This document shows positions 5,342 to 51,302 of a stretch of 64,000 nucleotides of DNA, in pieces. Position numbers and translations under genes: made by a program. Source of the stretch: Pseudomonas syringae (lineage in GTDB: Bacteria > Pseudomonadota > Gammaproteobacteria > Pseudomonadales > Pseudomonadaceae). The notes under the pieces are model-generated. The model had not been told where the DNA came from. It made no database searches and saw only the letters and a list, made by a program, of their open reading frames with translations. Numbering within the stretch: the first letter of the stretch is position 1; every line of letters begins with the position of its first letter. The stretch is from assembly GCF_001698815.1 (NCBI RefSeq), contig NZ_LGSI01000073.1, forward strand, positions 72,291 to 136,290, read 5' to 3'.

Positions 5342-5501
5342 GCGGACGCTCCGAGAAGTCAGCGAAAAAAGCGAGATCGATAAAAACCAGATCAATAAAA
5401 ACCAGGCGCGCCAGTATACGCAGGCTGGTCGTGTAGTTCATCCTCGAACCTTATTCGTCTGGCCGCGTCCAATCGGCACCCAAACAGATAGTGGCCCAAC
5501 G

Positions 5502-7440: not shown

Positions 7441-7512
7441 TCGGGTAGGAGGGGACTTGTCCCCGATGGGGTCTGCGCCGAAGCCATCGGGGACAAGTCC
7501 CCTCCTACCCGA
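7441..7512. repeat. Perfect intergenic palindrome (GGGGACTTGTCCCC type)
   Basis: Perfect 29-base inverted arms (7441-7469 and 7484-7512) are separated by 14 bases. Each arm contains GTAGGAGGGGACTTGTCCCC. It lies between two convergent genes (the hypothetical protein and prmB) and could act as a bidirectional terminator. Related copies are at 21144-21243, and half-copies sit in the tandem array. Confidence 0.85.
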
Positions 7513-16153: not shown

Positions 16154-16246
16154 TGTAGGACCGAATTCATTCGGGAAAGAGCCAGCGTGGACAAGGAATT
16201 CTTGTGAATACGCGCTAACGCCCTCCCGGATAAATCCGGTCCTACA
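16154..16246. repeat. Intergenic palindrome (GTAGGACCGG type, diverged)
   Basis: Arms at about 16154-16176 and 16222-16246 match imperfectly (TGTAGGACCGAATTCATTCGG against its partner containing CCGGATAAATCCGGTCCTACA in parts). It lies between convergent genes benE-like and the chemoreceptor. Confidence 0.65.
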
Positions 16247-21010: not shown

Positions 21011-21143
21011 GCTCCAGAAAAACCGGAAATCAGGCGCAGCTAAAGCCGATCCGCCTGAAACAAGCCGAGCTTAGCTGATTGAAATCCAAAGCGGTGGGAT
21101 CGGTTGCAAGAGCGCGTCGTCGTGCAACAAATAAGGGCTTGGC

Positions 21144-21243
21144 GGGAGGGGACTTGTCCCTGAAGGCAGTGGCTCAGACGGCATTAATATCAAACTATCC
21201 CGCTGCCTGGCCTATTGCTTTCGGGGACAAGTCCCCTCCTACA
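21144..21243. repeat. Intergenic palindrome (GGGGACTTGTCCCC type, long loop)
   Basis: Arms of the GGGAGGGGACTTGTCCC family at 21144-21160 and about 21221-21243 flank a spacer of about 60 bases. It is situated between two leftward genes. Confidence 0.7.
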
Positions 21244-25382: not shown

Positions 25383-25914
25383 CAAGACTGCGCACCCCAG
25401 AGTAATAAACAAACGAGCTAAATTAGGCGTTTTGCCAAGTTTAAACAATTGCCCAAAAGAATGAATTCACAGGGTTTTATACCGAAACGTGCCTGAGAAT
25501 CAGTGGCAATGCTTCGTCGGTTCACAACGGCACCTTGCTCACTCATCAATACCCCTCCAGCGACCATTGCGCCAGCGTGGGCAATTTAAGCTGCCCTCTG
25601 CAACCAGGCAAGCATCAGGCCAGGCAGTCGCGCAAATACTTGGCCGAAGACGCCGCCGACGGTCTGCGTGTCGTGCGGGAAATCACTGCACTGCTACTGT
25701 GCAAGGTGTTGAGCGATACGTAATGAGAGTGAACTTGTTCGCGAGGGTCACGTAGGAGCGGCTTTAGCCGCGAGAGACTTTTTCCCGGCTAAAGCCGCTC
25801 CTACACCGCTATGCGGGCAACCAGGAACGCCGCCCGCTCGCTCTAACGGGACCGGCGATTAGTGACAGGACGGCACTGTTTAAACGCCAGCCGGGACGAG
25901 GAGAACAATAAGAA
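25383..25914. other. Intergenic region, 532 bases
   Basis: It contains the palindrome at 25752-25804 and no reading frame I can support. Short open frames near 25489-25755 have Arg-rich, low-information translations and look like chance. It may hold remnants of a lost gene upstream of the biotin carboxylase gene. Confidence 0.6.
25752..25804. repeat. Intergenic palindrome (GTAGGAGCGGCTTTAGCCG)
   Basis: Perfect 19-base arms (25752-25770 and 25786-25804) with a 15-base loop that contains a run of T. It could also act as a terminator. Confidence 0.85.
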
Positions 25915-28931: not shown

Positions 28932-28983
28932 GTAGGACCGGCTTCAGCCGGGAGCACGTCCTCCCGGCTGAAGCCGGTCCTAC
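28932..28983. repeat. Perfect intergenic palindrome (GTAGGACCGG type)
   Basis: Perfect 23-base arms (28932-28954 and 28961-28983) with a 6-base loop lie between convergent ppnP and the ABC exporter gene. They probably also act as a transcription barrier. Confidence 0.85.
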
Positions 28984-31406: not shown

Positions 31407-32549
31407 CTACAGCTGCTTGCTTGCGCCCAGCGCCTGCACCAACTGCTCCAGCGCTGCGGACTGGCCATTGATGCGCACCAGCAGGCTGTCGATTTCGCGA
31501 CGAGGCGGATAGTTTTTGCGCAGGGCATCGAAAGCCACCGGTTGGCTGACCGGTCCCACCAGGCTACGGCGGAAATCGGCGTCGTCCCGGCGTGGGTCGT
31601 AAACGCCCCGGCACAGGGTATTCAACGCCCAGGTCGGATCGGTCCGCTCATCCAGCGTGACTTCTGCCAGCCAGGGCTTGGGCAGCAGGTCATCGAGGCT
31701 GATGGTCGCCGGTTGTTGGAGAAACCCGCACAACGCCTGGTAAATCTGCGCGGTGCCGCGTTGTCGACCATCCAGGCTGTAACCGGCAATGTGCGGCGTG
31801 GCGATGACGCACAGGTCGGCAAGCGCCGCGTTCACGCGCGGTTCGCCTTCCCAGACATCCAGCACGGCTTGCAGATCTTCGCGCTCCAGCAATACGTCGT
31901 ACAAGGCGTCGTTATCGACCACCGGTCCACGTGCGGCGTTGATCAGCCAGCAACCCTGTTGTAACTGCAGCAACCGTGGATGATCGAACAAGTGCCAGGT
32001 CGGGTGCTCGCCGGTCTTGTCCAGCGGGGTGTGCAGGCTGATGACGTCGCAGCGCTGGACGATTTCATCCAGGCTGACAAAATCGCCACCTTCGCTGGCT
32101 TGCCGAAGCGGGTCGCAGACCAGCACATTCCAGCCCAGCCCCTTCAAGACATTAACCAGACGCCCGCCCACCTGACCCGCGCCCACGACGCCATAAGTGC
32201 GCTGATTGAGGTCAACGCCTTCTATTTCCGCCAGGGTCAACAGGCTGCCGAGTACGTAATCCACCACGCCGCGAGCATTGCAGCCCGGTGCGCTGGACCA
32301 CTGAATGCCCGCCTCCCGGAAATAATCCAGATCCAGGTGGTCGGTGCCAATCGTGCAGGTGCCGACGAAACGCACCGGACTGCCCTCCAGCAGTTCGCGA
32401 GTGACCGGCGTCACCGAGCGCACCAACAGGATATCGGCGTCGGCTACCGCTGCGCGGTCAATGGAACGGCCCGGAAAACGCTGAATTTCACCGAAATGGG
32501 CGAAAAAAGCATCGAGCAGCGGAATATTTTCGTCAGCAACAATTCGCAT
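31407..32549 (-). CDS. pdxB: Erythronate-4-phosphate dehydrogenase
   Basis: A 380-aa D-isomer 2-hydroxyacid dehydrogenase acting in the DXP-dependent route to pyridoxal 5'-phosphate. The N terminus [16 protein letters not shown] is typical, the NAD motif reads [12 protein letters not shown], and catalytic Arg (NAARGPVVD), Glu and His (TPHIAGYS) are present. A C-terminal dimerisation extension marks PdxB rather than SerA. GGGGAG precedes ATG 32549; the frame is open to 32612. Confidence 0.95.
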
Positions 32550-32629
32550 GGTGTACTCCCCGGAAGACCGCGGCAGTGTAGGCGCGGATCGTTCCGATGG
32601 GCCAGTAAACAATCAGCGGGCCGGAAAAC

Positions 32630-32884
32630 TCAGTCGGCTTTCTTGCGAATCCAGTACAAAAAGGTGCCGCCTTCGGCCTGTTGATCGACCAGTTCGTGAT
32701 CAAGAAACACGCAGAACTTGGGGATATCGCGCCGGGTCGACGGATCGGTGGCAATCACCTTGAGCAAGCCGCCTGCGGGCAAGTCGCGCACTTTCTGGTG
32801 CAGCATCATTACCGGTTCAGGACAGTTGAGACCGCTGGCATCGAGGATGGCGTCAACGGGCAGGGTTTCAGATGATTCAGGCAT
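32630..32884 (-). CDS. tusA: Sulfur carrier protein TusA
   Basis: An 84-aa SirA/TusA-family protein that carries sulfur from IscS to the TusBCD/TusE relay for tRNA 2-thiolation. The active Cys lies in [13 protein letters not shown] (about Cys20). ATG 32884 has TTTGGAG upstream; the longer frame to 33016 would run into the repeat array and is rejected. Confidence 0.95.
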
Positions 32885-32974
32885 AAAGGGCTCCAAAAGC
32901 TGGTGGGCATTGTCGCTTAAAAGCCCCCCTGCATTCCACTGTACCAAGCCTTTGCCGGCGCAACCGGGTCTGCC

Positions 32975-33562
32975 GAGGAAGATCTTCAGCGCTTGCACCG
33001 GCGTCTTCGGGGACAAGTCCCCTCCTACCGGGTTGTGTTGATTCGGTAGGACCGGCCGGGGTGGCGCTCCACCTTGTCCGGGAAGGCGTCAGGTCTGACG
33101 AGGAAGATCTTCAGCACTTGCACCAGCGTCTTCGGGGCCAAGTCCCCTCCTACCCGGTTGTGTTGATTCGGTAGGACCGGATTTATCCGGGAAGGCGTCA
33201 GGTCTGACGAGGAAAATCTTCAGCGCTTGCACCGGCGTCTTCGGGGACAAGTCCCCTCCTACCCGGTTGTGTTGATTCGGTAGGACCGGATTTATCCGGG
33301 AAGGCGTCAGGTCTGACGAGGAAGATCTTCAGCACTTGCACCGGCGTCTTCGGGGACAAGTCCCCTCCTACCGGGTTGTGTTGATTCGGTAGGACCGGAT
33401 TTATCCGGGAAGGCGTCAGGTCTGCCGAGGAAGGTCTTCAGCGCTTGCACCGGCGTCTTCGGGGACAAGTCCCCTCCTACCCGGTTGTGTTGATTCGGTA
33501 GGACCGGCCGGGGTGGCGCTCCACCTTGTCCGGGAAGGCGTCAGGTCTGCCGAGGAAGATCT
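32975..33562. repeat. Tandem array of 109/125-bp palindrome-bearing units
   Basis: Units start at 32975, 33100, 33209, 33318 and 33427, with a partial sixth start at 33552. Unit lengths are 125, 109, 109, 109 and 125. Each unit begins GAGGAAGATCTTCAGC, then carries a half-arm of the GGGGACAAGTCCCCTCCTACC family and a half-arm of the GGTAGGACCGGATTTATCCGG family, and ends in GGAAGGCGTCAGGTCTG. The two 125-base units have an alternative segment GGCCGGGGTGGCGCTCCACC instead of the shorter GGATTTATCC. The sixth unit start merges into the 3' end of rlmM. The only inferred gene content in the tusA-rlmM gap is this array. Confidence 0.93.
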
Positions 33563-34630
33563 TCAGCCCTTGCGCTTGCCATCCAGCCGACGTAAATGGC
33601 ACGTCACTTCTTCGCGGTCGTGGTACAGCTGTTTGCAGCCAATCTCGACGCGGATGCCGCGCGCTTCAAACCCGTCTTCAATGCGTTGCAACAAACGCCG
33701 CACTTCAGCGTAGCGCTGCTTCATCGGCAGCTTGAGGTTGACTACCGCCTCACGGCACAGCCCTTCGCCGATCCAGGTTTCCAGCAACGCGGCATTACGC
33801 GCAGGCTTTTCGACGATATCGCACACCATCCAGTCCACCGGATGACGCGGTTTGAAGGTAAAACCATCGGCCATCAAATGCTGCACCAGCCCGGTATCCA
33901 TGAGGCTTTCCGCCATCGGACCGTTATCGATGGCGGTGACCAGCATGCCACGGCGCACCAGTTGATAGGTCCAGCCGCCCGGTGCGGCACCCAGATCGAC
34001 ACCCGTCATGTCGCCGGACAGCCGCTCGTCCCACTGATCGCGGGGGATGAAATGGTGCCAGGCTTCTTCCAGCTTCAAGGTCGAGCGGCTCGGCGCTTCC
34101 CGGGGGAACTTCAAGCGCGGAATACCCATCGGCCACATCGCCGAGTTATTCGCTTCGGCCACGCCCAGAAACACTTCGCGGCCGCTCTTGAAGGTCAGCA
34201 GCAGGCGCGGTTTGCGCGGGTCATCCACCAGTTTGCCGGCCTCGGTCAGGGCCTTGCGCAGTGGCGCTTCAAATTTGCGGCAAAAATTGGAAAGCTCCTT
34301 GCCATCATTGGTGTCGACCACTTCCAGCCACAGACTGCCGCAGGTCGCAAAACCCGCCATGTGCGCCAGAATCACGCTGATGCGGTCAGTTTCCGGCAAA
34401 TCAAGAAACACCCCGCGCGCCCACTGCCGAGGGAAGATCAACTGGGCGAAACGCTGGCCGTTCATCAAGCGTTCTGCGCCTTCGACTTCGGTGCATATGA
34501 ACTCGGCGCAGGCCGCGTTGGGCTTGGCCTTGGCGTAACCGGACACATTCAGGCGCGCCGCGTGTTCGGCGATTTCCGAGCAGACTTCACCCTCGAAACC
34601 GGGACGGCAGTGCATAAAAAGGGTGTTCAT
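33563..34630 (-). CDS. rlmM: 23S rRNA C2498 2'-O-ribose methyltransferase
   Basis: A 355-aa enzyme that methylates C2498 of 23S rRNA. The N terminus MNTLFMHCRPGFEGE is typical, and the SAM motif is VDLGAAPGGWTYQLV (about 219-233). The stop codon lies within the first bases of the tandem repeat array, where GAGGAAGATCTTCAGC is also the start of every repeat unit, so the array seems to have grown from this gene's tail. It is divergent from acnA. Confidence 0.95.
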   Translation of the reverse strand: MNTLFMHCRPGFEGEVCSEIAEHAARLNVSGYAKAKPNAACAEFICTEVEGAERLMNGQRFAQLIFPRQWARGVFLDLPETDRISVILAHMAGFATCGSLWLEVVDTNDGKELSNFCRKFEAPLRKALTEAGKLVDDPRKPRLLLTFKSGREVFLGVAEANNSAMWPMGIPRLKFPREAPSRSTLKLEEAWHHFIPRDQWDERLSGDMTGVDLGAAPGGWTYQLVRRGMLVTAIDNGPMAESLMDTGLVQHLMADGFTFKPRHPVDWMVCDIVEKPARNAALLETWIGEGLCREAVVNLKLPMKQRYAEVRRLLQRIEDGFEARGIRVEIGCKQLYHDREEVTCHLRRLDGKRKG

Positions 34631-51184: not shown

Positions 51185-51201
51185 GATAGTCACAGACTAT
51201 C
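51185..51201. promoter_or_regulatory. Palindrome GATAGTCACAGACTATC
   Basis: A perfect 7-bp inverted repeat with a 3-base spacer, 102 bases upstream of the 610-aa gene. A third half-site ACTATC follows at 51212-51217 on the same strand. A dimeric regulator could bind here. Confidence 0.5.
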
Positions 51202-51302
51202 AATACGACAAACTATCAACACGGCGTAAATACACTTGCGTGGTTATCTACGTAGATGCCTTACAGTCGTGGCGACCATAAATCAATAGTTGGAGATTCA
51301 TC

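Follow-up and report, generated by a model that had tools for sequence, protein, structure and literature searches.

Regularly spaced, alternating REPs are known as BIMEs, and hybrids built from two REP classes are among those described (Nunvar 2010, PMC2817692). In that report the length of a BIME differed between strains, a variation considered unlikely to come from homologous recombination or strand slippage only, and RAYT was proposed as the BIME maker. Within Pseudomonas, P. fluorescens SBW25 has 16 tandem REPIN clusters, for whose formation a second mechanism was suggested (Bertels and Rainey 2011, PMC3116915), and 22 REP classes, PF1-PF22, have been assigned along with their cognate RAYTs (Nunvar 2013, PMC3686654). 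Pseudomonas GTAG-1 REPs are likewise reiterated in tandem, and a rule of thumb from the same study holds that the spacer of a dimer is conserved when GTAG lies on the outside and variable when it lies on the inside (Di Nocera 2013, PMC3733652). The array examined here, between rlmM and tusA, was not itself met in the available parts of the REP and BIME literature, which were not queried for it by name.

We examined the array within the window, i.e., the whole 64-kb stretch of DNA that was analysed; the 6.6-Mb draft genome to which it belongs is called the window genome. The original prediction of five units (125, 109, 109, 109 and 125 bp) plus a partial sixth, lying head to tail, was confirmed for 32975-33567. 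The interval had been drawn to 33580; the repeat was found to run to about 33567, and the remainder is rlmM coding sequence (stop codon 33563-33565). Tandem Repeats Finder gave 33077-33507 a score of 806 (period 109, 4.0 copies, 96% matches), and the only two other rows for the 64-kb window scored 58 and 50, which excludes chance. Each unit was also said to open with the 16-mer GAGGAAGATCTTCAGC; this held exactly at four of the six starts, with one mismatch each in units 3 and 5. Elsewhere in the window there are two short tandem repeats, at 5363-5405 and 51192-51223, with periods of 15 and 16. The features, in window positions, are as follows.

32633..32884, minus strand: tusA (Pfam), downstream neighbour of rlmM in the same direction
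32975..33099: unit 1, 125 bp; half spacer, A REP (minus strand), 17-bp linker, long-loop B REP (plus strand), half spacer
33100..33208: unit 2, 109 bp; A (minus), linker, short-loop B (plus)
33209..33317: unit 3, 109 bp; A (minus), linker, short-loop B (plus); 16-mer with one mismatch
33318..33426: unit 4, 109 bp; A (minus), linker, short-loop B (plus)
33427..33551: unit 5, 125 bp; A (minus), linker, long-loop B (plus); 16-mer with one mismatch
33552..33567: partial unit 6; consists of a half spacer alone and continues into the stop codon of rlmM
33007-33028, 33132-33153, 33241-33262, 33350-33371, 33459-33480, minus strand: the five A REPs
33171-33192, 33280-33301, 33389-33410, plus strand: the three short-loop B REPs
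33046-33083, 33498-33535, plus strand: the two long-loop B REPs, a variant that also adjoins rlmM in Pseudomonas sp. CFII64
33168..33264, plus strand: one complete heterotypic doublet; B, 48-bp spacer, A, with the GTAG ends outward
33563..34630, minus strand: rlmM (Pfam); native stop codon kept, the array beginning at the stop
7445-7508, 21142-21242: further doublets, A-A
3-92, 28932-28983: further doublets, B-B
16155-16245, 25752-25804: further doublets, related variants

The predicted alternation of REP-like palindromes from two genome-wide families was borne out, with one REP of each family in every unit. On the plus strand the order reads a-17-L-48-a-17-B-48-a-17-B-48-a-17-B-48-a-17-L (lower case, minus strand; L, long-loop B), so that REPs alternate in orientation at regular spacing as in a BIME. 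The A REP is GTAGGAGGGGACTTGTCCCCGA; the B REP consists of GTAGGACCGG, a loop (six bases in the short form) and CCGGGA. B and A enclose the 48-bp spacer, which contains the 16-mer, and the 17-bp linker separates consecutive doublets. The wording that a unit holds half of each of two families was right, because there are also inverted doublets in which both REPs come from one family: A-A on other contigs and in the window, B-B in the window. Of the 272 A sites in the window genome 49 were listed, and these included 10 A-A pairs at 78-80 bp.

For single-stranded DNA of one doublet the predicted fold has an energy of -21.3 kcal/mol (z -2.92), a stability matched by 2 of 200 shuffles. In this fold the GTAG heads pair with each other, the A and B palindromes make a hairpin each, and the tails pair to give an inner stem; heads and tails can pair despite the differing A and B palindromes. 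By this predicted fold the inverted pair B-48-a can form one hairpin, as a REPIN does. Having both REPs of the same class is, however, a defining feature of the REPIN, and the stems of A and B differ; the unit is therefore heterotypic and is filed as a hybrid BIME and not as a plain REPIN. The array is thus a hybrid BIME (a tandem REPIN array) of a sort already known.

Comparisons beyond the window relied mainly upon Pseudomonas sp. CFII64, the nearest named genome found (91.7% identity over 6.27 kb), which is taken as a sister species of the window species. The array matched 49 places in the window genome at E <= 0.001; arrays of 8-11 REPs were seen on contigs C42, C60, C63, C40 and C26, and the retrieved stretches (40 from the window genome, 20 from CFII64) contained arrays, doublets or single REPs of like kinds. 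Tandem modules with inter-REP segments common to the family were therefore present at many loci, as the BIME concept has it. For neighbours passing distance filters of 10-25 and 38-64 bp, linkers measured 15-20 bp, and the spacers of the window genome fell at 46-50 bp (38 of 54), 56-61 bp (11) and 40-44 bp (5). The A REP, at up to two mismatches, was counted 272 times in the window genome, 192 times in CFII64, once in genome G018 and not at all in ten others; leaving aside that single stray match, only two of the 13 genomes counted carry it. The B REP is widespread, with 605 copies in the window genome, 716 in CFII64 and 0-986 in the others at up to one mismatch. When 398 genomes of the genus were searched, a two-unit query matched in 55, the window genome included, and the full query matched the window genome only, the best outside match being 72% over about 150 bases; weak matches may have been missed, because two candidates per genome were scored.

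We compared the likeness of linkers and spacers within one locus to that between loci. Linker identity was 0.913 within versus 0.682 between loci in the window genome (57 linkers, 28 loci), and 0.910 versus 0.661 in CFII64 (35 linkers, 20 loci). For spacers of 44-52 bp the values were 0.914 versus 0.781 (window genome; 39 spacers, 22 loci) and 0.868 versus 0.716 (CFII64; 29 spacers, 18 loci), the CFII64 tests being made on the first 20 stretches retrieved. None of 2000 permutations attained the observed within-locus likeness in any of the four tests. Repeats are more alike within one array than between arrays. Variants in the window array were common to units in conflicting patterns (2 and 4; 1 and 4; 2, 3 and 5), as exchange between units would leave.

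The search for a RAYT gene, proposed along with the original prediction, found two in the window genome, both as Y1 transposase matches that pass NCBIfam NF047646. On contig C11 (L198:1444-2360), B-type (GACCGG) and GAGCGG-type REPs form a tandem array immediately after the RAYT gene; that array has its own spacer and forms a second array family. Flanks were surveyed for B (at up to one mismatch) at 30 loci from 12 genomes, of 39 RAYT matches. The nine loci whose RAYT is 64-100% identical to that of C11 all had 3-13 B REPs in their flanks, B being present at each of the eight other than C11 (64-70% identity); the single locus at 56% had two, and none of the 20 at or below 54% had any. Some RAYT flanks bore the GTGGGACCGG form of the B REP. 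RAYT genes of this lineage are flanked by the B class, as in a REPIN-RAYT system, and since B presence tracks RAYT identity, B looks like the cognate REP of the C11 RAYT lineage. No A REP lay beside a RAYT at the 30 loci examined, both RAYTs of the window genome included.

At the same rlmM junction CFII64 has l-17-A-48-b, about 1.5 units versus 5.5 in the window, followed by other sequence and one more B; the contig ends 307 bases after rlmM. For a wider comparison 40 stretches per genome were picked by similarity to the window array, of which 15 from the window genome, representing 13 places, were partnered and 25 were not; for the window place only the rlmM flank served for the pairing, and two of the places each consist of two window-genome contig ends. 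REP number differed at 8 of the 13 places, 7 being longer in the window genome and 1 in CFII64. The REP counts (window genome/CFII64) were 10/4 at the window place, where three of the four are regularly spaced, and 10/2, 10/4, 8/2, at least 10/3, at least 6/2, 4/3, 3/3, 2/2, 2/3, 2/2, 3/3 and 2/2 at the others. The original prediction that unit number varies concerned strains; the variation shown here is between sister species, with one genome compared for each. The larger numbers in the window genome partly reflect choice, because likeness to the window array was the basis on which loci entered the comparison. CFII64 has long arrays too, of up to 12 REPs (L246), the partner of which was absent from the stretches retrieved from the window genome. 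Growth here versus loss in CFII64, as read from these sequences, is not polarised by an outgroup. In the CFII64 genome no close tusA turned up (only a 44% match, also present in the window genome), nor did a pdxB orthologue (best match 35%) or anything matching the C11 RAYT protein. This may represent contigs missing from the CFII64 record, or it could be real and represent loss of tusA, pdxB and the C11 RAYT; because the tusA and pdxB orthologues were also not found there, absence of the C11 RAYT is weak evidence.

The gene after rlmM varied among close relatives (loci L010, L069-L092), being tusA in some, and in others miaE-like, universal-stress-type or a regulator by our reading of the sequence. 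The rlmM downstream junction is a variable spot, since the next gene differs among close relatives.

We favour, with a probability of roughly 0.88, a reading of the whole as a Pseudomonas BIME of heterotypic REP doublets that was seeded by a RAYT and grew in place. One module is a pair of facing B and A REPs whose GTAG ends point outward; 48 bp of inner spacer lie between the two REPs, and a linker of 17 bp leads to the doublet that follows. The founder, either a doublet or a triplet, may have been copied into the gap between rlmM and tusA by a RAYT transposase, probably that of C11, an insertion that would precede the split of the window species and CFII64. The founder would then have grown in place, slippage or unequal crossing-over adding units; the three-REP form a-17-B-48-a holds a direct repeat 109 bp apart, so that either process can do so. 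Exchange between units would keep the repeats of one array alike and distinct from those of other arrays. Although the array has probably multiplied in place, several points stand against this reading, i.e., the argument of Nunvar 2010 against slippage, the lack of a C11 RAYT match in CFII64 despite its many arrays, and the A REP without an adjoining RAYT in the loci seen; the transposition and growth events are ones that we infer.

The original prediction had the array grow from the rlmM tail, by unequal duplication of the 3' end of the gene together with two palindromes. The rlmM tail and the unit start do have 16 bases in common in the window, and capture of gene ends by BIMEs has a precedent, rayt 3' ends lying within four BIMEs (Nunvar 2010, PMC2817692). 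The claim was nevertheless not supported, in that the 16-mer belongs to the inner spacer of an element found across the genome, and relatives have rlmM ends without it. At up to one mismatch the window genome has 29 copies, 6 in the window array and 23 elsewhere, and all 23 of the latter fall in places matching the array; in the 12 other genomes there were 13 copies in CFII64 and 0-2, never exact, in each of the remaining 11 (a reversed control pattern gave one match, in genome G034). Relative genomes G025 and G018, compared at loci with rlmM on the locus plus strand and with the window's own locus (L009) left out, retain the native rlmM end CGCAAGGGCTGA but have neither the array nor the AGATCTTCCTC that comes next in the window. 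The same holds for 10 of the 33 rlmM loci inspected out of 80 (L068-L096, L099, L101, L118, L133), namely L070, L071, L081, L084, L087, L088, L090-L092 and L095; the remaining inspected loci, L068 apart, have different gene ends. Because the GGGCTGA end precedes other sequence in relatives that lack the array, the array joins at the native stop codon. Some likeness is left to the idea of a duplicated gene end: L071, alone among the ten array-free loci, continues GGCTGA with AGAT (the others have different sequence), and the native rlmM end shares only GCTGA with the spacer or, more loosely, agrees with it at 11 of 13 bases. This agreement is only moderately unusual, reaching at least 11 in 12 of 2000 shuffles and 11 at 3 of 711 other gene ends (open frames of at least 250 codons, not curated genes, with those ending in GGGCTGA dropped). 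The genome-wide 16-mer count, the 13 copies in the sister genome and the rlmM ends of relatives are the grounds for rejecting a tandem duplication of the gene tail; the rlmM-tail origin is already largely refuted, and we hold an unequal duplication with two palindromes to be very improbable. For the RAYT-seeded BIME grown in place, the same likeness has another use. The rlmM-side end of the array is cut mid-spacer, at the point where the spacer resembles the rlmM end, and a homology-assisted deletion may have fused the two; such a fusion would account for the truncation of the last doublet, the 11/13 match being compatible. That the number of units is an artefact of the draft assembly we regard as unlikely. 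Of the 41 strongest array places (among 49 matching), 15 lie within 50 bp of a contig end, as against an expected share of 0.11%; two shared loci are split over two contigs in the window genome and lie on a single contig in CFII64, and two other arrays contain N. Unit numbers in the draft are therefore uncertain, because array places pile up at contig ends and these two loci are split. The five window units, however, differ by base changes and loop, and being distinguishable they are not a single unit laid down repeatedly. The 15 contig ends with arrays fall on C6, C7, C14, C24, C25, C40, C41, C46, C55, C57, C59, C63, C69 and C73, and C6/C40 and C57/C73 are probably neighbouring contigs, since their ends pair by comparison with CFII64. 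Arrays at so many contig ends are a likely reason that such genomes break in draft assemblies.

A role in expression, by which the array would be kept as an mRNA stabiliser, attenuator or gyrase site between rlmM and tusA, seems quite improbable. The predicted fold of the rlmM-tusA strand was stabler than that of its shuffles (z -5.13; 0 of 20 as stable), and E. coli BIME-2 is reported to bind gyrase (PMC2817692); but the same element lies at dozens of other places, the rlmM-tusA gap of L074, L076, L077 and L087 is 54-80 bp without an array, and a simple scan of 32800-33700 gave 0 intrinsic terminator-like and 0 promoter-like sites, where shuffles averaged 1.1 and 0.2. Short ORFs are listed in or over the array. 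A structured RNA of a known family was also considered and rejected, there being no Rfam match at E <= 1 in 32500-33800. The block GCGACAAT just before tusA is common to array-free relatives (e.g., L074, L077 and L087), so that the tusA-proximal region looks untouched. We expect little effect of the array on expression, and any effect on tusA would be secondary. It is possible, and deserves more weight, that RAYT itself catalysed growth of the array by rolling-circle copying of one module, in place of slippage or recombination. B REPs track one RAYT lineage, the C11 RAYT is followed directly by a tandem REP array, and Nunvar 2010 (PMC2817692) offers both the model and the argument that recombination and slippage are insufficient alone; yet the C11 RAYT is unmatched in CFII64 (a record that may be incomplete), which has arrays of up to 12 REPs, and exchange between units would also fit the scattered way in which units 1-5 share variants. 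More tentatively, two REP lineages may depend on one transposase: A, beside which no RAYT lay in the loci seen and which among the 13 genomes counted is abundant only in the window species and CFII64, would have spread as the partner half of B-type doublets, and mixed doublets would have become arrays independently in both sister species, in CFII64 possibly after RAYT loss. Were this doubtful proposal true, arrays could grow without a transposase, and the founder doublets common to both species would offer a start-and-end comparison for BIME growth.

These results correct a tempting but wrong origin story: the repeats look as if copied from the end of a gene, yet they belong to an element spread over the genome, which merely stops at that gene. 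The loci shared by the sister genomes, with short forms in one to set beside long arrays in the other, should be useful for learning how BIMEs grow.

In its tandem modules, its alternating REPs and its two different REPs per module, the array resembles E. coli BIME-2, where the two are Y and Z2, and it resembles those Stenotrophomonas BIMEs that are hybrids of REPs from two RAYTs (PMC2817692). It differs from both in its REP sequences and spacers, and in that A is without a RAYT beside it in its own genome. SBW25 likewise has tandem, near-identical REPINs with flanking sequence, and arrays that alternate two REP groups, GI-GIII; the GI-GIII spacings, however, are 112 and 72 bp (peak at 184) versus the 109-bp unit of the window, and a GACCGG-type REP is not named in the available sections of that paper (PMC3116915). 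With classes PF1-PF22 the window REPs have in common the GT(A/G)G head, the short hairpin and an abundance of the class tied to RAYT (PMC3686654). A and B are themselves absent from the 22 classes of Table 1 in that paper, though between A and class PF1 (GTGGGAGGGGGCTTGCCCCCGAT) there are only 3 differences in 22 positions. Neither the window array nor its species is named in the available sections of the GTAG-1 report (PMC3733652), but the GTAG-1 rule was matched in the window genome, where between-locus identity was 0.781 for spacers versus 0.682 for linkers.
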